From: Ancylobacter mangrovi
GTDB lineage: Bacteria > Pseudomonadota > Alphaproteobacteria > Rhizobiales > Xanthobacteraceae
Direction of reading: 5' to 3'
DNA: 64,000 bases
Assembly (NCBI RefSeq): GCF_024752355.1
Contig: NZ_JANTHZ010000002.1
Coordinates: 682,001 to 746,000 of the forward strand
Part shown: piece by piece, positions 33,958 through 45,632 of the stretch
How positions within the stretch are numbered: the first letter of the stretch is position 1
How the letters are laid out: each line of letters begins with the position of its first letter
Translations under genes and position numbers: made by a program
Notes under the pieces: generated by a model
Told to the model about the DNA's origin: nothing
Databases searched by the model: none
Seen by the model: only the letters and a program-made list of their open reading frames with translations

Positions 33958-35448
33958 TCACCCCGTCGTCGGCATGACGAACTGGGCGCCCTCGCGGATG
34001 CCGGTCGGCCATCGGGCGGTGGTGGTCTTCATCTTGGTATAGAAGCCCACGCCCTCCATGCCGTAGACGTTGCGGTCGCCGAACACCGAGCGCTTCCAGC
34101 CGCCGAAGGAATGGAACGCCACCGGCACCGGGATCGGCACGTTGATGCCGATCATGCCCGCCTTGGCGTCGCGGTCGAAGGCGCGGGCGGAATCACCGTC
34201 GCGGGTGAAGATGGCGGCGCCGTTGCCGTACTCGTGGTCGTTGACCAGCTTCAGCGCCTCGTCGAAGCGGTCGACGCGGACCACCGAAAGGACGGGGCCG
34301 AAGATCTCTTCCTTGTAGATCTTCATCTGCGGCGTCACCCGGTCGAACAGGCAGCCGCCGATGAAGTAGCCGTCCTCGTAGCCCTGCAGCTTCAGGCCGC
34401 GCCCGTCGACCACCAGCTCGGCGCCCTCGGCGACGCCAGTGTCGACATAGCCCGAGACCTTGGCGAGGTGCTCTTTCGTCACCAGCGGGCCCATCTCGCT
34501 GTCGCGGTCGAGGCCGGGGCCAACCTTCAGCCCGCGCACCTTCGGCACCAGCTTCTCCATCAGCGCGTCGCCCACGCCCCCGACCGCCACCGCGACCGAG
34601 ACCGCCATGCAGCGCTCGCCGGCCGAGCCGTAGCCCGCGCCCATCAGCGCGTCGACGGTCTTGTCGAGGTCGGCGTCGGGCATGACGACGAGGTGGTTCT
34701 TCGCCCCGCACAGCGCCTGCGCGCGCTTTCCGTGCGCGGCGGCGGTCTTGTAGACATACTCGCCGATCGCGGTGGAGCCGACGAAGCTCACCGCCGCGAC
34801 GTCGGGATGCGTCAGCAGCGCGTCGACCGCCTCCTTGTCGCCCTGCACCACGTTGAACACGCCGGCCGGCAGCCCGGCCTCGGCCAGCAGCTCGGCCAGC
34901 ATCAGCGAGGCGGTCGGGTCCTTCTCGGAGGGCTTGAGCACGAAGGTGTTGCCGCAGGCGAGCGCCACCGGGAACATCCACATCGGCACCATGGCCGGGA
35001 AGTTGAACGGGGTGATGCCCGCGACCACGCCTACCGGGTGGCGGGCGGAGAACACGTCGACCCCGCGCGCGACCTGCTCGGTGAAGTCGCCGCGCATCAG
35101 GTGCGGGATGCCGCAGGCGAACTCGACCACCTCGATGCCGCGCGTGACCTCGCCCTTGGCGTCCTCGAAGGTCTTGCCGTGCTCCTTCGTGATCGCGGTG
35201 GCGATCGCGTCGATGTCGCGGTCCAGCAGCGCCTTGAACTTGAACAGGATGCGCGCGCGGGTCAGCGGCGGGGTGTCGGCCCAGGCGGGGAAGGCGCCGG
35301 CGGCCGCGGCGACCGCCTCGCCCGTCGTCGCGGCGGAGGCGAGCAGCACCTCGCCGGACTGGGCGCCGGTGGACGGATCGAAGACCGGGGCGCTGCGGCC
35401 CGTGGTGGTGGCAAGCCTGCCGCCGATGTAATGACCGATGACCGCCAT
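33958..35448 (-). CDS. mmsA: Methylmalonate-semialdehyde dehydrogenase (acylating)
   Basis: 496 residues, full ALDH length. Catalytic cysteine is in [13 protein letters not shown], with the MmsA-type [13 protein letters not shown] in place of the usual general-base glutamate region. Cofactor motif [23 protein letters not shown] is present. It oxidises methylmalonate (and malonate) semialdehyde to propionyl- (acetyl-) CoA in valine, myo-inositol and beta-alanine catabolism. Divergent from a LysR gene. The ATG at 35448 ([10 protein letters not shown]) was chosen over one at 35493. Confidence 0.94.
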
Positions 35449-35525
35449 CGCGACCTCTCCTAAGGGCAAATTCGGGCATGACCCAGCGGGCATGCGCGCG
35501 GGAATGGGATGGCAGCGTTGTGCTT

Positions 35526-35593: not shown

Positions 35594-36511
35594 ATGGACT
35601 GGGATCACCTGCGCATCTTCCTCGCCGTGGCGCGCGCCGGCCAGATGCTGGCGGCGGCGCGCCAGCTCGGGCTCGACCATGCCACGGTCGGGCGCCGGCT
35701 CGGCGCGCTCGAGGCCAGCCTCGGCGCCAAGCTGCTGGAGCGGCGCACCACCGGCAGCGAGCTCACCCCCGCCGGCGAGCGGCTGCTCGTCCATGCCGAG
35801 CGGGTGGAGACGCAGATGCTGCAGGCGCAGGCGGCGCTCGGCAATGTCGACCTCGCGCTTGCCGGCACGGTGCGGATCGGCGCGCCGGACGGGTTCGGCA
35901 CCTATTTCCTCGCCTCCCGGCTCGGGCGCCTCGCCGAGGAGCATCCGGGGCTGACGATCCAGCTCGCGCCGCTGCCGCGCAGCTTCTCGCTGCCCAAGCG
36001 CGAAGTGGACATCGCGGTCACGCTGCAGCGCCCGGCCGAGGGGCGGCTGGTGGCGCGCAAGCTCACCGACTACAGCCTCAGCGTCTACGCCTCGCGCGAC
36101 TATCTCGCCCGCACCGGGCCGATCGACCGGCTGGCCGACCTCAACGGAAGGCTGCTGGTGACCTATGTCGCCGACCTCGTCTACAGCCCGGCGCTCGACT
36201 ATTTCGAGGCGCTGCGCGAGATCGAGGCGCGGCGGCTGGAATGCGCCAGCGTGGTCGGGCAGATGGAGGCGGTGCGCGCCGGCGCCGGGGTCGGCATCCT
36301 GCACGACTATGCCGCGCGCGGTCACGAGGAGCTGGTGCCGCTGCTGCCGGAGCTGAGCTTCCGGCGCGCCTACTGGCTCGTCACCCATGCCGACATCCAC
36401 GAATTGCGGCGCATCCGCGAGGTGGAGGGCTTCATCGTCGCGGCGGTGCGCGAGACGCGGCACCTGTTCGTGTCCGCGCCGGCGGCGTCAGCGCAGGCCG
36501 AAGCCGGATAG
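35594..36511 (+). CDS. LysR-family regulator, probable regulator of mmsA
   Basis: 305 residues. The N-terminal helix-turn-helix (WDHLRIFLAVARAGQMLAAA, then LDHATVGRRLGALEASLG) belongs to the LysR subgroup with an ATVGRR recognition helix. A substrate-binding-like effector domain follows. Its divergent position to mmsA with a shared LysR-like operator suggests it controls mmsA. The last 24 bp overlap the convergent TctC-type gene. Confidence 0.92.
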   Translation: MDWDHLRIFLAVARAGQMLAAARQLGLDHATVGRRLGALEASLGAKLLERRTTGSELTPAGERLLVHAERVETQMLQAQAALGNVDLALAGTVRIGAPDGFGTYFLASRLGRLAEEHPGLTIQLAPLPRSFSLPKREVDIAVTLQRPAEGRLVARKLTDYSLSVYASRDYLARTGPIDRLADLNGRLLVTYVADLVYSPALDYFEALREIEARRLECASVVGQMEAVRAGAGVGILHDYAARGHEELVPLLPELSFRRAYWLVTHADIHELRRIREVEGFIVAAVRETRHLFVSAPAASAQAEAG

Positions 36512-37453
36512 CAGGCTGCGCACCCGCGCCAGCTCGGCATTGAGGAAGATGCGGAAGGGCGGGCCGATCAGCACGTCGCTCGACCAGCTGTACTGGAACA
36601 GCGCGGCGCGCCAGGCGAGGCTCGCGAGCATGCGCCCGACCATCGCCTGCAGGCGGGCGGCGTCCGCCGCGTCGACGCCGGGCGGCGCGAACACGCCGCG
36701 CCAGTTGGAGATCTCGATGTCGGCGCCCTGCTCGAAGCAGGTGGGAATGGCGATGCCGGGCAGGCGCTGCGGCGAGGAGATGGCCAGCCCGCGCAGCCGG
36801 CCGATCGCGATGTCGTCCTGCAGCGCGCTGAGGCTGTCCACCACGCAGTCGGCCCCGCCGGACGTCACATAGTCGACCGCGCCCTTGCCGCCGACGAAGG
36901 CGCGGTAGGGAATGGCGCTCGCGCGGACGCCGGCCGCGCGACCGATCAGGCCGACGAACAGATGGTCGACATTGCCGCGATTGCCGCCGGCGAAGCTGAC
37001 CGAGCCGGGATGGTGGGCCAGCTCGGCGAGGATATCGCGCAGGGAATCGGTCTCCGAGTCATGCGCGACCGCAAGCACCATGTACTCGTTGGTCAGCCGG
37101 GCGATCGGCGTGAGGCGGGAGAGATCGGCGGGGACGCGGCCGAGCAGCACGGCGCCGATCATGCCGAGCCCGCCGACGAGCAGCGTGTCGGGCCGGCCGT
37201 GATAGCGGGTGAGGAAATCGGCGATGCCGGCGGCGGCGCCTGCGGTTTCGTAGAGCAGCCCGACATCGGCGACCGCGCCGCTCTCGATCAGGCTTTCCTG
37301 CATCGCTCTTGCCGTGCGGTCCCATCCGCCGCCCCGGGTCGAGGGGACGAACAGCGTCAGCGGGTCGAGCGCCGGGGGCCCGGGCTGGCCCCGGGCCGCT
37401 TGCGTCCCCGCGAGCGTCGCGGCCGCTCCGGCAATGAACAGGCGACGGTCCAT
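36488..37453 (-). CDS. TctC/Bug-family tripartite tricarboxylate transporter binding protein (orphan)
   Basis: 321 residues. A Tat-like signal (MDRRLFIAGAAATLAG ... ARG) is followed by the Bug-family pattern: LFVPSTRGGGWDRTARAMQ, a VGGLGMIGAVL stretch, SFAGGNRGNVDHLFVGLI, and IPYRAFVGGKGAVDYVTSGGADC. Such periplasmic proteins bind carboxylates for TctAB permeases. No tctA or tctB is nearby, so it is one of the common orphans. A possible signalling or shared-permease role is inference. It overlaps the 3' end of the LysR gene. Confidence 0.87.
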   Translation of the reverse strand: MDRRLFIAGAAATLAGTQAARGQPGPPALDPLTLFVPSTRGGGWDRTARAMQESLIESGAVADVGLLYETAGAAAGIADFLTRYHGRPDTLLVGGLGMIGAVLLGRVPADLSRLTPIARLTNEYMVLAVAHDSETDSLRDILAELAHHPGSVSFAGGNRGNVDHLFVGLIGRAAGVRASAIPYRAFVGGKGAVDYVTSGGADCVVDSLSALQDDIAIGRLRGLAISSPQRLPGIAIPTCFEQGADIEISNWRGVFAPPGVDAADAARLQAMVGRMLASLAWRAALFQYSWSSDVLIGPPFRIFLNAELARVRSLLSGFGLR

Positions 37454-37587
37454 AAGTTCTTGCGTATTCAAAGCCTGCGCCACTGCCGCGGAAAGGTCGA
37501 CCCCGGCCGGCATAACCTTTCGTAAGGGCAGGCGCCAAGGGTTCACGCGTGGCACCGGTGCTTCGGCGCCCGGGTGTCACATGAACA

Positions 37588-37730: not shown

Positions 37731-38429
37731 TCAGGCGCTCGCGCGCGAAGCCGTCCCGTCGCGCTCGGCGCGGCTGCGGACCAGGAAATCCACCAGCGAG
37801 CGGCCGGCGCCGCGAATGTGCTCGCGGGTCAGCTCGGCCGCGCGGGTGGCATCGCGCGCCTCGCAGGCGGCGAGGATCGCCTCGTGCTCGCGCCGCGCGC
37901 GCTCCATGCCGTCGGTCATGACGAGCTGGATCCGCGAGTAGCGGTCGACCCGGTCCAGCGCCGCGTTGATGGCCTGCAGGAAATAGGGGCGGTTGGCGGC
38001 CTCATAGAGCGCGTAGTGGAAGTCGCGGTTGAGTTCGCCCCAGTGCACGCTGTCGGGCTCGCTCGCGAAGGCGGCCGCGATCTGCCGCGCCCGGCGCAGC
38101 GCCTCGTCCGTCATGCGCGGCACCGAGGCCTTCAGCATCTCCGGCTCCAGCAGCGCGCGGTACTCGAAGATCTCGCTCACCTCCTCGGTCGAGAGGGTGG
38201 TGACGACGGCGCCGCGATAGCGCTGGGTCGAGACGAGGCCCTGTTCCTCGAGCCGGGTCAGCGCCTCGCGCACCGGGATGCGGCTGACGTTGAACATGCG
38301 CGCGATGCGGTCCTGGCGCAGCGCCTCGCCCTCCGTCAGGTCGCCCTTGACGATGGCTTCGCGCAGCGCCTCGAAGATCACCTCCGAGGCGGACGCCATC
38401 TGGCCGATATCGACGGACCGGACCTTCAT
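37731..38429 (-). CDS. GntR/FCD-family regulator of the hydroxyproline cluster
   Basis: 232 residues. GntR winged helix (VIFEALREAIVKGDLTEGEALRQDRIARMFNVSRIPVREALTRLEEQGLV) followed by an FCD ligand domain with LNRDFHYALYEAANRPYFL and REHEAILAACEARDATRAAELTREHI. It is divergent from the four-gene hydroxyproline operon with a 97-bp gap that contains a palindrome. It is likely the local repressor, relieved by hydroxyproline or a breakdown product. The ATG at 38429 was chosen over 38468. Confidence 0.92.
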   Translation of the reverse strand: MKVRSVDIGQMASASEVIFEALREAIVKGDLTEGEALRQDRIARMFNVSRIPVREALTRLEEQGLVSTQRYRGAVVTTLSTEEVSEIFEYRALLEPEMLKASVPRMTDEALRRARQIAAAFASEPDSVHWGELNRDFHYALYEAANRPYFLQAINAALDRVDRYSRIQLVMTDGMERARREHEAILAACEARDATRAAELTREHIRGAGRSLVDFLVRSRAERDGTASRASA

Positions 38430-38469
38430 CGCCTCATCCTCTCCCGAACTCAAAAAAGGATATTGCAAA

Positions 38470-38526: not shown

Positions 38527-39423
38527 ATGTGGGCAGGTGTGCTTCCGGCCGTTACCGCCAAGTTCACCGAGGCTGGCGCCCTCGATCACAAGGAGATGGA
38601 GCGCTGCTTCGCGCGCCAGATCGCGGCGGGCGTCGACGGGCTGATCGTCAACGGCTCGCTCGGCGAGGGGCCGATGCTCTCCCATGACGAGCGGCTCGAG
38701 GTGCTGGCGCTCGCCCAGTCGGTGGCCGGCGCCCGCCCGGTGCTGATGACCATCGCGGACGCGGCGACGCGCGACTGCGCAACGCTCGCCTCCCGCGCCG
38801 CCAGGGCCGGCGCCTCGGGCCTGATGGTGGTGCCGAGCCTCGTCTACCACACCAACCCGAAGGAAACGGTCGCCACGCTGAAGGCGGTGGCCGAGGCGGG
38901 CGACCTGCCGGTGATGATCTATTCCAACCGCATCGCCTACCGGGTCGACGTGACGGTCGAGATCCTGGAGGAGCTGGCGAAGGATTCCCGCTTCGTCGCG
39001 ATCAAGGAATCCTCCGACGACATCCGCCGCACCACCGACATCATCAACGCACTGGGCGAGCGCTATGACGTGTTCACCGGCGTCGACAACCTCGCCTTCG
39101 AGGCGCTGGCGGTGGGCGCGGTGGGCTGGGTCGCCGGCCTCGTCATCGCCTTCCCGGAGGAGACGGTCGCGATCTACCGGCTGATGAAGGCCGGGCGCTA
39201 TGCCGAGGCGCTGGCGATCTACCGCTGGTTCCGCCCGCTGCTCGACCTCGACGTGTCGAGCTACCTGGTGCAGAACCTGAAGCTGGTCGAGGCGCTGGTG
39301 ACCGGCACCACCGAGCATGTGCGCGCCCCGCGCCTGCCGCTGGAAGGCGAGCAGCGCGCCAAGGTCGAGAAGATCGTCGCCGAGGCGCTGGCCACCCGGC
39401 CGCTGCTCGCCAAGGCGGCGTGA
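38527..39423 (+). CDS. DHDPS-family protein, probable pyrroline-4-hydroxy-2-carboxylate deaminase
   Basis: 298 residues, Schiff-base TIM barrel of the dihydrodipicolinate synthase family. The substrate loop is VNGSLGEGPMLS, the tyrosine is in MIYSNRIAYRV and the catalytic lysine in FVAIKESSDD. In a cluster with 4-hydroxyproline epimerase and a D-amino-acid dehydrogenase, the likely reaction is conversion of pyrroline-4-hydroxy-2-carboxylate to alpha-ketoglutarate semialdehyde. First gene of the operon, 97 bp from the divergent regulator. Confidence 0.87.
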   Translation: MWAGVLPAVTAKFTEAGALDHKEMERCFARQIAAGVDGLIVNGSLGEGPMLSHDERLEVLALAQSVAGARPVLMTIADAATRDCATLASRAARAGASGLMVVPSLVYHTNPKETVATLKAVAEAGDLPVMIYSNRIAYRVDVTVEILEELAKDSRFVAIKESSDDIRRTTDIINALGERYDVFTGVDNLAFEALAVGAVGWVAGLVIAFPEETVAIYRLMKAGRYAEALAIYRWFRPLLDLDVSSYLVQNLKLVEALVTGTTEHVRAPRLPLEGEQRAKVEKIVAEALATRPLLAKAA

Positions 39424-39502: not shown

Positions 39503-40747
39503 ATGTCCGCCTCGGACGACATCATCGTCATCGGTGCCGGCATCGTCGGCCTCGCCTCGGCCTTCCACCTGCAGGGCGAGGGCCTGAAGGTGCGGCTGGT
39601 CGAGCGCGGCGGCGTCGCCGAGGGCGCGAGCATGGGCAATGCCGGCGCCCTCGCCTTCACCGACATCCTGCCGCTGGCCTCGCCCGGCATCCTGCGCAAG
39701 GCACCGCGCTGGCTGCTCGACCCGCTCGGCCCGCTGTCGATCCCGCCCTGCTACCTGCCGCGCCTCGCGCCGTGGCTGCTGCGCTTCTGGCGCGCCAGCC
39801 TGCCGGACCGGCAGGCGCGCTCGATCGCCGCCCAGAGCGCGCTGATGCAGGTTGCCTCCGGCGCGATGGAGGCGATGGTGCGCGAGGCCGGGCTTTCCGG
39901 CCGGCTGCGCGGCGACGGCAATCTCCAGCTCTATGAGAGCGAGGCGGAACTTGCCGCCGCGCTGCCGGGCTGGACCGCGCGCGAGGCGGAAGGCATCGCC
40001 TTCGAGCATGTGCGCGGGGCGCGGCTCGCCGAGCTGCAGCCCGGCCTGTCGCCGCGCTTCACCGCCGGCACCTTCACCCCGCACTGGAAGACGGTCGACG
40101 ATCCCTATCATTTCGCGCTGGCGCTGTTCGACGCGGTGATGGCGCGCGGCGCGGCGATCTCGCATGGCGAGGTGAGCGCGCTCGAGCCGCAGGGCGAGCG
40201 GGTGCGCGTGCGGCTGGCCGATGGCGGCGCGCTGGAGGCGGGCCATGTGGTGCTCGCCGCCGGCGCCTGGTCGCGCCCGCTGGCGACGATGCTGGGCGAC
40301 CGCGTACCGCTGGAAACCGAGCGCGGCTACAACACCACCCTGCCCGCCGGCGCCTTCGATCTGAGGCGCCAGCTCACCTTCGGCGGTCACGGCTTCGTGG
40401 TCACGCCGCTCGCGACCGGCATCCGCGTCGGCGGCGCGGTCGAGCTCGGCGGGCTTCGCGCGCCGCCCAATTTCGCCCGCTCCGAGGCGATGCTGAAGAA
40501 AGCCGCCGCTTTTCTCCCGGGGCTGAGGACGACGGGCGGGCGGCAGTGGATGGGCTTTCGCCCCTCGCTGCCCGACAGCCTGCCGGTCATCGGCCGCTCG
40601 GCCGCCTCGCCCCGAGTGGTCTATGCTTTCGGCCACGGCCATCTCGGCCTCACCCAGAGCGCGGGCACCGGCCGGCTGGTGGCCGACCTCGTGACCGGCC
40701 GCAGCCCGGCCATCCCGCTCGACCCGTTCCGTCCCGACCGCTTCTGA
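39503..40747 (+). CDS. FAD-dependent D-amino-acid dehydrogenase, probable D-hydroxyproline dehydrogenase
   Basis: 414 residues. The dinucleotide-binding motif DDIIVIGAGIVGLASAFHLQ is at the N-terminus, with the DadA-type GASMGNAGALAF. The C-terminal FAD contact is MGFRPSLPDSLPVIGRS, then FGHGHLGLTQSAGTG. It should oxidise cis-4-hydroxy-D-proline to pyrroline-4-hydroxy-2-carboxylate and pass electrons to the respiratory chain. Second gene of the operon, between the deaminase and the epimerase. Confidence 0.9.
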   Translation: MSASDDIIVIGAGIVGLASAFHLQGEGLKVRLVERGGVAEGASMGNAGALAFTDILPLASPGILRKAPRWLLDPLGPLSIPPCYLPRLAPWLLRFWRASLPDRQARSIAAQSALMQVASGAMEAMVREAGLSGRLRGDGNLQLYESEAELAAALPGWTAREAEGIAFEHVRGARLAELQPGLSPRFTAGTFTPHWKTVDDPYHFALALFDAVMARGAAISHGEVSALEPQGERVRVRLADGGALEAGHVVLAAGAWSRPLATMLGDRVPLETERGYNTTLPAGAFDLRRQLTFGGHGFVVTPLATGIRVGGAVELGGLRAPPNFARSEAMLKKAAAFLPGLRTTGGRQWMGFRPSLPDSLPVIGRSAASPRVVYAFGHGHLGLTQSAGTGRLVADLVTGRSPAIPLDPFRPDRF

Positions 40748-40778: not shown

Positions 40779-41780
40779 ATGGCGCGACACAGCTTCTTCT
40801 GCATAGACGGCCACACCTGCGGCAATCCGGTCCGGCTCGTCGCCGGCGGCGGGCCGGCGCTCGAGGGCGCCACCATGCTGGAGAAGCGGGCGCATTTCCT
40901 TCGCGACTACGACTGGATCCGCACCGGGCTGATGTTCGAGCCGCGCGGCCACGACATGATGTCGGGCTCGATCCTCTACCCGCCGACGCGGCCGGACTGC
41001 GACGTCGCGATCCTGTTCATCGAGACGTCGGGCTGCCTGCCCATGTGCGGGCACGGCACCATCGGCACCGTCACCATGGCGATCGAGCACGGGCTGGTCA
41101 CGCCGCGCGTGCCGGGCGTGCTGATGCTCGACACGCCGGCCGGGGTGGTGAAGGCCGAATACCGGCAGGAAGGCCAGTATGTGGAGGAGGTGCGCATCAC
41201 CAACGTGCCCGCCTTCCTCTACGCGCAGGGCCTGAGCGCCGACTGCCCGGGCCTCGGCGAGATCAGCGTCGACGTCGCCTATGGCGGGAATTTCTACGCC
41301 ATCGTCGAGCCGCAGGACGGCTATCGCGACATGTCCGACTTCACCGCCGGCGAGCTGATCGGCATGAGCGGGGCGCTGCGCCGCGCGCTCAACGCCAAGT
41401 ATGAATTCGTGCACCCGACGATGCCGGATATTCGCGGCCTGTCGCACATATTGTGGACCGGGTTGCCGCGCCACAACGAGGCGCATGCGCGCAATGCGGT
41501 GTTCTATGGCGACAAGGCGATCGACCGCTCGCCCTGCGGCACCGGCACCTCCTCGCGCATGGCCCAGCTCGCCGCGCTCGGCCGGCTGAAGGTCGGCGAC
41601 GAGTTCGTGCATGAGAGCATCATCGGCTCGCTGTTCCGCGGGCGGGTCGAGGCGGCGGCGAAGGTGGGGGACCGCGAGGCGATCATCCCCTCCATCGGCG
41701 GCTGGGCGCGGATGACCGGCTTCAACACCCTCTTCATCGACGAGCGCGACCCGTTCGCGCACGGCTTCGTCGTGGTCTGA
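40779..41780 (+). CDS. 4-hydroxyproline epimerase
   Basis: 333 residues of the proline racemase superfamily. Both catalytic cysteines are present: C90 in LPMCGHGTIG and C253 in RSPCGTGTSS. Together with the gene order this points to 4-hydroxyproline 2-epimerase, turning trans-4-hydroxy-L-proline into the cis-D isomer. Proline racemase activity is a less likely alternative. 31 bp after the dehydrogenase gene and 9 bp before the paralogue. Confidence 0.92.
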   Translation: MARHSFFCIDGHTCGNPVRLVAGGGPALEGATMLEKRAHFLRDYDWIRTGLMFEPRGHDMMSGSILYPPTRPDCDVAILFIETSGCLPMCGHGTIGTVTMAIEHGLVTPRVPGVLMLDTPAGVVKAEYRQEGQYVEEVRITNVPAFLYAQGLSADCPGLGEISVDVAYGGNFYAIVEPQDGYRDMSDFTAGELIGMSGALRRALNAKYEFVHPTMPDIRGLSHILWTGLPRHNEAHARNAVFYGDKAIDRSPCGTGTSSRMAQLAALGRLKVGDEFVHESIIGSLFRGRVEAAAKVGDREAIIPSIGGWARMTGFNTLFIDERDPFAHGFVVV

Positions 41781-41789
41781 AGGATCGCC

Positions 41790-42824
41790 ATGCGCTCGTC
41801 GAGGCTCATCCACATCGTCGGCTGCCATGCGGAGGGCGAGGTCGGGGACGTCATCGTCGGCGGCGTCGCCCCGCCGCCGGGCGAGACGCTGTGGGCGCAG
41901 TCGCGCTTCATCGCCAGCGACAAGGGCCTGCGCAACTTCGTGCTGCAGGAGCCGCGCGGCGGGGTGTTCCGGCACGTGAACCTGCTAGTGCCGCCCAAGG
42001 ACCCGCGCGCCCGGATGGGCTTCATCATCATGGAGCCCGAGGACACGCCGCCCATGTCGGGCTCGAACGCCATCTGCGTGGCGACGGTGCTGCTCGACAC
42101 CGGCATCGTGCCGATGGAAGAGCCGCAGACGCGCATGGTGCTGGAGGCGCCGGGCGGGCTTATCGAGGTGACGGCCGACTGCGCGGGCGGCAAGGCGCGG
42201 CGCATCACCGTCCTCAACCACCCCTCCTTCGCCGACCGGCTCGACGCCCGGCTGGAGGTGGAAGGGCTCGGCACGCTCACGGTCGACACCGCCTATGGCG
42301 GCGACAGCTTCGTCATCGTCGACGCAAAGGCGCTGGGCTTTTCCATCCGCCCGGACGAGGCCAGGGACCTCGCCGAGACCGGGATGCGGATCGTGAAGGC
42401 GGCCAACGCGCAGCTCGGCTTCCGCCACCCGGAGAACGCGGAATGGGACCACATCTCGTTCTGCCAGTTCGCCGCCCCGCTCACCCATGAGGACGGCATC
42501 GCCAGCGGGGCCAACGCGGTGGCCATCCGCCCCGGCAAGATCGACCGCTCGCCGACCGGCACCGGCTGCTCGGCGCGGATGGCGGTGCTGCACGCCAAGG
42601 GGGTGCTGAAGGTGGGCGATGGCTTCATCGGCCGCTCGATCATCGATTCGCGCTTCGACTGCCGGATCGAGCGCGAAACCACCATCGGCGGCCGGCCGGC
42701 CATCGTGCCGGCGATCAGCGGCCGGGCCTTCCTCACCCACACCGCCCAGCTCATGGTCGACCCCGACGACCCGTGGCCCTCGGGCTACCGGCTCTCCGAC
42801 ACCTGGCCGGTCTGGGAGCCCTGA
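41790..42824 (+). CDS. Proline-racemase superfamily paralogue lacking both catalytic cysteines
   Basis: 344 residues, full length and clearly related to the preceding epimerase. The two catalytic positions read S90 ([11 protein letters not shown]) and T256 ([10 protein letters not shown]) instead of Cys/Cys. Thr at the second position is the known mark of trans-3-hydroxy-L-proline dehydratases, which normally keep Cys at the first. The Ser/Thr pair suggests a dehydratase-like or otherwise altered activity. Last gene of the operon, 9 bp after the epimerase, so certainly cotranscribed. Confidence 0.88.
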
Positions 42825-42830
42825 GCGATC

Positions 42831-43298
42831 TCAGCCGCCAACGCCGGCCGGCGCGGCCGCGCCGTGGTGATGGTGCCGGCATTCATTGTGGTCGGCGAGG
42901 ATCTCGATCACCCGGCACTCGCCCACATGGCCGTGCGAGCAGCCTTCCACCATGCGCGCCAGCTCCGCCTTCAGCGCAGTGAGGCTGGCGATGCGGCGCT
43001 CCACCTCGGCGAGGTGGTCGCGGGCGATGGCGTCGGCGACGGCGCAGGACTGCTCCGGCCGGTCCTGGAGCTGGAGCAGGGTGCGGATCGCCTCGATCTC
43101 GAAGCCGAGCTCGCGGGCATGGCGGATGAAGGCCAGCCGGTGCCGATCGGACTCGCCATAGGCCCGGCGCCCGCCCTCGGTGCGCGGCGGGGCCGGCAGC
43201 AGGCCGATCTCCTCGTAGTAGCGGATGGTCGGCACCTTCACGCCGCTCGCGCGCGCGACCTCGCCGATGCTGAAGCGGCCTTCGTTCTCGCTCGTCAT
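42831..43298 (-). CDS. MerR-family zinc/cadmium-responsive regulator (ZntR/CadR-like)
   Basis: 155 residues. MerR helix-turn-helix (FSIGEVARASGVKVPTIRYYEEIGLL) is followed by the dimerisation helix. Metal-site cysteines are C85 (QSCAVADAI), C120 and C128 (CSHGHVGEC), plus C140 next to HHHH near the end. The pattern is that of divalent-metal sensors. It is divergent from the ZntA-type ATPase with a classical MerR operator between, and convergent with the proline-racemase paralogue 6 bp away. Confidence 0.92.
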   Translation of the reverse strand: MTSENEGRFSIGEVARASGVKVPTIRYYEEIGLLPAPPRTEGGRRAYGESDRHRLAFIRHARELGFEIEAIRTLLQLQDRPEQSCAVADAIARDHLAEVERRIASLTALKAELARMVEGCSHGHVGECRVIEILADHNECRHHHHGAAAPAGVGG

Positions 43299-43364: not shown

Positions 43365-45632
43365 ATGTCGGCGCTGAAGACCCGCTACCGTATCGATGGC
43401 ATGGACTGCGCGTCCTGCGCGTCCAAGATCGACACCGCGGTGCGCCGGGTGAAGGGCGTGGAGGAGGTGTCGGTCTCGGTCACGGCCGGCACCATGACGG
43501 TCGAGCACGAGGGCGCGGACCTCGCCGTGCTGGAGCGGCGGGTCTCCGGCCTCGGCTACACCATCATGCCGCTGGCGGCCGGGAACGATCCCGGGCCCGC
43601 CGCGAAGGGCCATGGCCACGGCCCGTGCGACGGGCACGACCACGCTCATCACGATCATGACCATCATGATCACGACCACGCGCACGACCACGATCACGCG
43701 CACGGCCATTCCCATGGCGAGGCGGCGCGCGCGCCGGCCGGCCATGCGCACAGCCACCTGCCGAGCGACGTGCCGTGGTGGCAGACCGGCAAGGCGCGCC
43801 TGACGCTGGTCTGCGGCGCCGCGCTGGCGGCGGCCTATGTCGCCGGCCATTTCGTGCCGGTGCTCGATCCCTGGATCTTCATCGCCGCGCTGCTGGTCGG
43901 GCTGGTGCCGATCGCCCGCCGCGCGGTGATGGCCGCGCTTGCCGGCACGCCGTTCTCGATCGAGATGCTGATGACCATCGCCGCCGTCGGCGCGGTGATC
44001 ATCGGCGCCGGCGAGGAGGCGGCGGCGGTGGTGTTCCTGTTTCTGGTCGGCGAGCTGCTCGAGGGTGTCGCCGCCGGGCGGGCGCGCGAGAGCATCCGCT
44101 CGCTCACCGCCCTGGTGCCGAAGACCGCGCGCCTCGTCGAGAACGGGGCGACCCGCGAGGTGCCGGCCGAGAGCCTCACCGTCGGCGCGACCATTCTGGT
44201 GCGCCCGGGCGAGCGGATTCCGGCCGACGGCGAGGTGATCGAGGGCGCGAGCTCGGTCAACGAGGCGCCGGTGACGGGCGAGAGCGTGCCGGTGGCCAAG
44301 GCCGCGGGCGACCCGGTGTTCGCCGGCACGGTGAACGGCGAGGCCGCGCTCACCGTGCGCGCCACCACCGAGCCTTCCGACAACACCATCGCCCGCGTCG
44401 TACGCCTCGTCGAGGAAGCGCAGGAGAGCAAGGCGCCGACCGAGCGTTTCATCGACCGCTTCTCGCGCTGGTACACGCCGTTCGTGGTGGTGCTGGCGGC
44501 GCTGATCGCCGTCGTGCCGCCGCTCGTCGCCGGCGCCGCCTGGGACGAATGGATCTACAAGGGGCTCGCCATACTGCTGATCGGCTGCCCCTGCGCACTG
44601 GTCATCTCGACCCCGGCCGCCATCGCCGCGGGTCTCGCCGCCGGCGCGCGGCGCGGCCTGCTGATCAAGGGCGGGGCGGTGCTGGAGACGCTGCGGCTCG
44701 TCGGCCTGGTGGCGCTCGACAAGACCGGCACGCTGACCGAGGGCAAGCCGAAGGTGACCGACATTGTGGCCTTCGAAGGTGACGAGGCCGCGCTGCTCGG
44801 CCGCGCCGCCGCGCTGGAGGCGGGCTCGACCCATCCGCTGGCGAGCGCGGTCCTCGCCGAGGCGCAGGCGCGCGGCATAGAGCCGGCGCCGGTGCGCGAC
44901 GCCGGTGCGGCGAGCGGCGAGGGCGTGAGCGGCACGGTGGACGGGGCGGCGCTGTTCCTCGGCTCGCCCAAGGCCGCGATGGCCCGCGCCAGCCTGTCGG
45001 CGGAGCAGCAGGCGGCGATCGAGCGCCTCAACGACGACGGCAAGACGGTCGCGGTGCTGCTGGCCGACGGCGCCGCGCAGGGGCTGATCGCCATGCGCGA
45101 CGAGCCGCGCGCCGATGCCGCGGAGGGCCTCGCCAGCCTCGCCCAGGCGGGCATCCGCACGCTGATGCTCACCGGCGACAATGAGCGCACGGCGCGGGCG
45201 ATCGGCCGCGATCTCGGCATCGAGGTGCGCGCCGGGCTGATGCCGGCCGACAAGCAGCGCATCGTCGGCGAGCAGAAGGCGAGCGGGCTCAAGGTCGCCA
45301 AGGTCGGCGACGGCATCAACGACGCGCCTGCGCTCGCCACCGCCGATGTAGGCATCGCCATGGGCGGGGGCACCGACGTGGCACTGGAGACGGCGGATGC
45401 GGCAGTTCTGCACGGGCGGGTCGGCGACGTGGCGGCGATGATCGCGCTGTCCAGGGCGACCATGCGCAACATCCACCAGAACATCGCCATCGCGCTGGGG
45501 CTGAAGGCGGTGTTCCTCGTCACCACCATCGCCGGCATCACCGGCCTGTGGCCTGCGATCCTGGCCGATACGGGGGCGACCGTGCTGGTGACGGCCAACG
45601 CGCTCCGGCTGCTGGGGCGGCGGGCGGACTGA
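43365..45632 (+). CDS. zntA: Zinc/cadmium/lead-exporting P-type ATPase
   Basis: 755 residues. An N-terminal heavy-metal domain has metal-binding C15 and C18 (GMDCASC). A His-rich linker follows with 17 histidines between residues 83 and 117. The P1B core has membrane metal site C408-P-C410, phosphorylated D452 in DKTGTLTEG, and GDGINDAPALATADVGIAMG. The CPC motif with a His-rich linker fits Zn/Cd/Pb export to the periplasm. Controlled by the divergent MerR protein. Confidence 0.93.
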   Translation: MSALKTRYRIDGMDCASCASKIDTAVRRVKGVEEVSVSVTAGTMTVEHEGADLAVLERRVSGLGYTIMPLAAGNDPGPAAKGHGHGPCDGHDHAHHDHDHHDHDHAHDHDHAHGHSHGEAARAPAGHAHSHLPSDVPWWQTGKARLTLVCGAALAAAYVAGHFVPVLDPWIFIAALLVGLVPIARRAVMAALAGTPFSIEMLMTIAAVGAVIIGAGEEAAAVVFLFLVGELLEGVAAGRARESIRSLTALVPKTARLVENGATREVPAESLTVGATILVRPGERIPADGEVIEGASSVNEAPVTGESVPVAKAAGDPVFAGTVNGEAALTVRATTEPSDNTIARVVRLVEEAQESKAPTERFIDRFSRWYTPFVVVLAALIAVVPPLVAGAAWDEWIYKGLAILLIGCPCALVISTPAAIAAGLAAGARRGLLIKGGAVLETLRLVGLVALDKTGTLTEGKPKVTDIVAFEGDEAALLGRAAALEAGSTHPLASAVLAEAQARGIEPAPVRDAGAASGEGVSGTVDGAALFLGSPKAAMARASLSAEQQAAIERLNDDGKTVAVLLADGAAQGLIAMRDEPRADAAEGLASLAQAGIRTLMLTGDNERTARAIGRDLGIEVRAGLMPADKQRIVGEQKASGLKVAKVGDGINDAPALATADVGIAMGGGTDVALETADAAVLHGRVGDVAAMIALSRATMRNIHQNIAIALGLKAVFLVTTIAGITGLWPAILADTGATVLVTANALRLLGRRAD

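Follow-up and report, generated by a model that had tools for sequence, protein, structure and literature searches.

A probable Ser/Thr-type trans-3-hydroxy-L-proline dehydratase encoded in a hydroxyproline gene cluster of Ancylobacter mangrovi

The gene at 41790..42824 on the plus strand of the analyzed 64,000-nucleotide stretch of Ancylobacter mangrovi DNA (the window) encodes a 344-residue protein of the proline racemase superfamily. The protein resembles Type II trans-3-hydroxy-L-proline dehydratases (T3LHypD) in its matches to the family models NF047722 and PF05544 and in its identity to the protein of the solved structure 4K7G. Judged from its sequence, it is very probably, in the main, a trans-3-hydroxy-L-proline dehydratase that forms pyrroline-2-carboxylate. 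Our confidence stops short of near-certainty because cluster 3 of the superfamily, which holds the relatives B9K4G4 and 1TM0, is described in PMC4113996 as mixed in function, with some promiscuity between 4HypE and t3HypD activities, and its member D0B556 is reported there to epimerize 3-hydroxyproline. The gene belongs to ordinary hydroxyproline catabolism. The preliminary description of this DNA was correct in its observation, which is already explained: the Ser/Thr dyad, the hydroxyproline gene cluster, and the possible dehydratase function stand, and the unfamiliarity of the dyad and the idea of a non-catalytic partner do not.

The dyad is formed by Ser90 (codon TCG, 42057-42059) and Thr256 (codon ACC, 42555-42557), which confirms that Ser and Thr replace both catalytic cysteines. 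The remaining cysteines of the protein are C12, C96, C131, C225, C260, and C291. A shift of the catalytic cysteines to C96 or C260 was considered and rejected, as both residues also occur in 4K7G and lie six and four residues away from the dyad positions. The upstream paralogue, a 4-hydroxyproline 2-epimerase (40779..41780, plus strand; NF010578, 602.4 bits against a cut-off of 376), carries a Cys/Cys pair at Cys90 (LPMCGHGTI) and Cys253 (DRSPCGTGTS). It shares the superfamily and the gene cluster with the Ser/Thr protein, to which it is 31% identical. The two genes are separated by nine base pairs (41781-41789), as previously noted, and an AAGGA stretch resembling a ribosome-binding site precedes the ATG of the Ser/Thr gene.

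The open reading frame is not a chance frame, since it matches PF05544 of Pfam with 442.4 bits over residues 9-334, and all 80 listed named relatives keep Ser90 and Asn93, with Thr or Cys at position 256. The T3LHypD equivalog model NF047722 covers residues 1-340 with a score of 649.6 bits, above its cut-off of 550. The protein stays below the cut-offs of all five other listed NCBIfam models of the proline racemase family. These include NF045511 (200.3 bits against 540), which we infer to describe the Cys/Thr dehydratase type, the 4-hydroxyproline 2-epimerase model NF010578 (204.2 bits against 376; the protein has neither a Cys/Cys nor a Ser/Cys pair), and the proline racemase model NF010576 (245.2 bits against 556; Cys/Cys pair lacking).

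The three best of 17 matches among solved structures are 4K8L (586.6 bits), 4K7G (580.2 bits), and 1TM0 (566.0 bits); each of them has Ser and Thr at the two dyad positions in the printed alignments. The alignment to 4K7G is gap-free over residues 1-341, with Ser90, Asn93, and Thr256 matched. Met89, Ser90, Gly91, Ser92, Asn93, Asp252, and Thr256 are common to both proteins. A protein encoded on plasmid pAtS4e of Allorhizobium ampelinum S4 (formerly Agrobacterium vitis S4) has a translation equal to the 4K7G chain at all positions of the printed alignment, and is 73.8% identical to the window protein over residues 1-340. Close identity to a characterized Ser/Thr enzyme had been named in the preliminary description as an observation that would refute the novelty of the dyad, and it is present here. 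The identity, together with the NF047722 score, supports the suggestion that the protein could be a dehydratase.

A statement in PMC4113996 (eLife 2014) lists 4K7G as t3HypD of A. vitis S4, and others describe B9K4G4/Avi_7022 as a t3HypD solved with bound pyrrole-2-carboxylate. From these statements combined it follows that 4K7G is B9K4G4; the plasmid record has a different locus tag. According to the legend of Figure 5D, the catalytic Ser90 of B9K4G4 is positioned by Asn93, and the orientation of Thr256 is non-catalytic; the legend of Figure 9 presents 1H NMR of trans-3-hydroxyproline dehydration. One sentence in the section on 4HypE structures labels B9K4G4/Avi_7022 as a 4HypE with Ser93 and Cys255. 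We read this label as a slip, because it contradicts the figure legend, section 12, and the deposition statement of the same paper. PMC4364671 (PLoS One 2015) states that Ser-Thr proteins had recently been annotated as T3LHypD, and terms them Type II. The Ser/Thr dyad is thus already known, with descriptions since 2014, and the view that it is an unfamiliar type is refuted by 4K7G and the Type II label.

B9K4G4 shares the Ser90/Thr256 numbering, as well as Ser92, Asn93, and Asp252, with the window protein. Its genomic surroundings differ: the B9K4G4 gene has ABC-transporter and oxoprolinase genes as neighbours, and the 25-kb stretch of pAtS4e examined contains an Ldh-family gene, but no 4HypE gene was found in it. 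The gene of another Ser/Thr protein, 68.2% identical to that of the window, is clustered with genes for 4-hydroxyproline epimerase, DAO, Ldh-family, and aldehyde dehydrogenase proteins. Unlike in the window, its epimerase and dehydratase genes are separated by approximately 1.7 kb of other coding sequence, which may encode aconitase X. Type I T3LHypD enzymes, such as human L3HYPDH, resemble the window protein in superfamily, in the assigned reaction, and in the Thr of the second face, but their first site is occupied by Cys where the window protein has Ser. The dehydratase 7QPO, also of known structure, matches the window protein distantly, with 129.5 bits.

The catalytic mechanism can be modelled on the solved relative, for which Ser90, positioned by Asn93, is reported as the catalytic residue. 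In the window protein, Ser90 would likewise abstract the α-proton of trans-3-hydroxy-L-proline. The protonated Ser90 may then aid the departure of the 3-hydroxyl from the same face, which would amount to a syn elimination. The predicted product, Δ2-pyrroline-2-carboxylate, would convert to Δ1-pyrroline-2-carboxylate. Thr256 would occupy the opposite face, at the second acid/base site of the epimerases, without acting as an acid or base, so that elimination rather than racemization would take place. The reduction of pyrroline-2-carboxylate to L-proline would fall to a pyrroline-2-carboxylate reductase whose gene lies at another place in the genome. The lone OCD-family match in the genome (G000:C15:554456-555397) scores 416.1 bits with the pyrroline-2-carboxylate reductase model NF004793 (cut-off 322). 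No such reductase gene adjoins the dehydratase gene, as the OCD gene lies approximately 127 kb before the start of the window. The genome also has six Ldh_2-family matches.

The hydroxyproline cluster proposed earlier is supported by three genes upstream of the dehydratase gene and on the same strand. In addition to the 4-hydroxyproline 2-epimerase, these are a DHDPS-family gene (38527..39423, plus strand; PF00701, 164.5 bits), which is below the NCBIfam cut-offs and whose putative specificity is taken from the cluster, and a gene for an FAD-dependent D-amino-acid dehydrogenase or oxidase (39503..40747, plus strand; PF01266 DAO, 212.6 bits), which is below the NCBIfam cut-offs shown. The product of the latter probably acts on cis-4-hydroxy-D-proline, given the composition of the cluster and statements in PMC4113996. 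The same paper gives a composition of the trans-4-hydroxyproline branch that matches the DHDPS, DAO, and epimerase genes, and reports several species with proximal 4HypE and t3HypD genes that use both hydroxyprolines. We propose that the epimerase, DAO, and DHDPS proteins constitute a separate trans-4-hydroxyproline branch, and that the two branches would share the gene cluster and not a catalytic complex. The annotation of the window is thereby settled, with the cluster most likely handling both trans-4- and trans-3-hydroxyproline.

A GntR/FCD-family regulator gene (37731..38468, minus strand; PF07729 and PF00392 over cut-off) is divergent from the cluster. Beyond it lies a gene for a TctC-type tripartite tricarboxylate transporter receptor (36488-37555, minus strand; PF03401, 60.7 bits), a possible candidate for the uptake protein of the cluster. 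A convergent MerR-family regulator gene (42831..43298, minus strand; PF09278, PF13411, and PF00376 over cut-off) bounds the cluster, and probably goes with the P-type-ATPase-like open reading frame at 43365, as read from the open reading frames. The genome was searched for a counterpart of the aldehyde dehydrogenase encoded in the S. meliloti hydroxyproline cluster; the best-scoring of 13 matches is only 31% identical, so that no close match was obtained for the enzyme of the last step of the trans-4-hydroxyproline branch. The aldehyde dehydrogenase gene at 33958-35493 of the window was rejected as a ketoglutarate-semialdehyde dehydrogenase, as its product resembles methylmalonate-semialdehyde dehydrogenase (TIGR01722, 693.9 bits against 448.5).

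The nine-base-pair spacing had been taken to argue for joint function of the epimerase and the Ser/Thr protein. The argument is weak: of the 24 genomes of the genus in which the two genes lie near each other on a single contig, 21 have the matches approximately 1.15-1.48 kb apart (counted by hand from coordinates), and three, those of the window, G121, and G126, have them directly adjacent. An enolase-family gene, related to cis-3-hydroxyproline dehydratase and assigned by NF043002 as scored on the copy of locus L011, is present within 300 nucleotides of the orthologue in 22 of the 25 loci of the genus. The three loci without it are again those of the window, G121, and G126. Elsewhere in the window genome there is no close orthologue of the cis-3-hydroxyproline dehydratase, the best-scoring of 19 matches being 32% identical. 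Since the enolase-family gene is absent at the window locus, the short spacing may reflect its loss, or an arrangement that never included it.

The cis-3-hydroxyproline dehydratase that the window genome thus lacks could in principle be replaced by the Ser/Thr protein, acting on cis-3-hydroxyproline or another hydroxylated substrate. We consider such a role highly improbable, because Ser/Thr orthologues of 84-85% identity co-occur with the enolase-family gene at loci L011-L016, and because, as stated in PMC5144071, the proton and hydroxyl are anti in cis-3-hydroxy-L-proline and syn in the trans-3 isomer. There is just as little to recommend the idea that the protein accompanies the Cys/Cys epimerase without being catalytic itself, which is suggested by the absence of both cysteines and by the nine-base-pair spacing. 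It finds no support, since PMC4113996 presents the 73.8%-identical relative, which shares the dyad, as an enzyme solved with a bound ligand. In addition, the active-site positions are conserved, and an epimerase gene more than 60% identical to that of the window lies within 5 kb in only 21 of the 80 listed named relatives, a lower bound given that some of their contigs are short.

Somewhat more weight, although still little, goes to the possibility that, despite its Ser/Thr dyad, the protein chiefly epimerizes 3- or 4-hydroxyproline at C2, or works promiscuously as both epimerase and dehydratase. The heterogeneity of cluster 3 and the activity of D0B556 speak for it, and the Ser/Thr structures 4K8L and 1TM0 are about as near to the window protein as 4K7G. 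However, a second 4HypE would be unneeded beside the high-scoring Cys/Cys epimerase next door, and the Thr256 reported as non-catalytic in PMC4113996 leaves no obvious second acid/base for a two-face proton transfer.

The distribution of the gene is patchy in the wider family, with any NF047722 match in 12 of 119 genomes and a match over the cut-off in four. Within the genus, the cut-off is passed by a match in 25 of 30 genomes and by none in the remaining five. In the tree, the orthologues of the same-genus genomes G022 and G103 are identical, over the stretch compared, to those of Ancylobacter polymorphus and A. aquaticus, which makes an origin of the window in Ancylobacter (Xanthobacteraceae) most likely. 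The 80 named relatives, which are 72-85% identical to the window protein and were kept among at least 566 confirmed relatives, have Ser90/Asn93/Thr256 in 70 cases and Ser/Asn/Cys in the other ten (L017, L018, L020 of Bosea sp. 117, L053, L063, L067, L073, L080, L081, and L088). The orthologues of the genus are divided into 20 with Ser/Thr and five with Ser/Cys (L118, L122, L125, L128, and L130). As these five Ser/Cys orthologues pass the NF047722 cut-off, with 650.7-655.7 bits and thus no lower than the window protein, the model is blind to the difference between the two dyads. At four of the five loci the epimerase gene shares the contig of the orthologue and precedes it by approximately 1.2-1.35 kb; in G139 it is located on another contig.

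Among the 108 rows with more than 60% identity, 93 have an ACN codon at position 256 and 15 have a TGY codon. The Thr and Cys codons are two bases apart, and a single misread base is therefore no explanation of the alternation. A tree of 89 rows (76 Ser/Thr, 12 Ser/Cys, and one outgroup; rows below 44% identity and later genus loci excluded) requires at least four changes of the Ser/Cys label, three of which are forced by well-supported branches. The named Ser/Cys orthologues are mostly nested among Ser/Thr proteins, apart from L053, which is placed outside the other close relatives. Two of the 12 Ser/Cys rows are distant (45-49% identity), and their long branches are flagged as unsure. A cis-3 dehydratase gene is present in the locus of six of the ten Ser/Cys and 13 of the 70 Ser/Thr named relatives, which are not independent of one another. 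A tie between the Ser/Cys dyad and this gene was rejected beyond the status of a lead, as within the genus the gene occurs with both dyads (17 of 20 Ser/Thr and all five Ser/Cys loci).

We speculate that residue 256 could be a simple switch between elimination and epimerization in near-identical enzymes. If it is a true switch, the Thr/Cys alternation could underlie the functional heterogeneity that PMC4113996 describes for the cluster. The wider point is modest: a curated annotation model mixes both dyads, and the alternation is the sole part of the present observations that may deserve follow-up.

The genome encodes a third protein of the proline racemase family (L003, G000:C12:338600-339610), whose dyad positions are occupied by Cys (MCGHGT) and Gly (DRSPGGTGTS). 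It is below the cut-offs of all six NCBIfam models that it matches. The Cys/Gly pair is aligned at the same sites in two genomes of the same family (L100 and L102).
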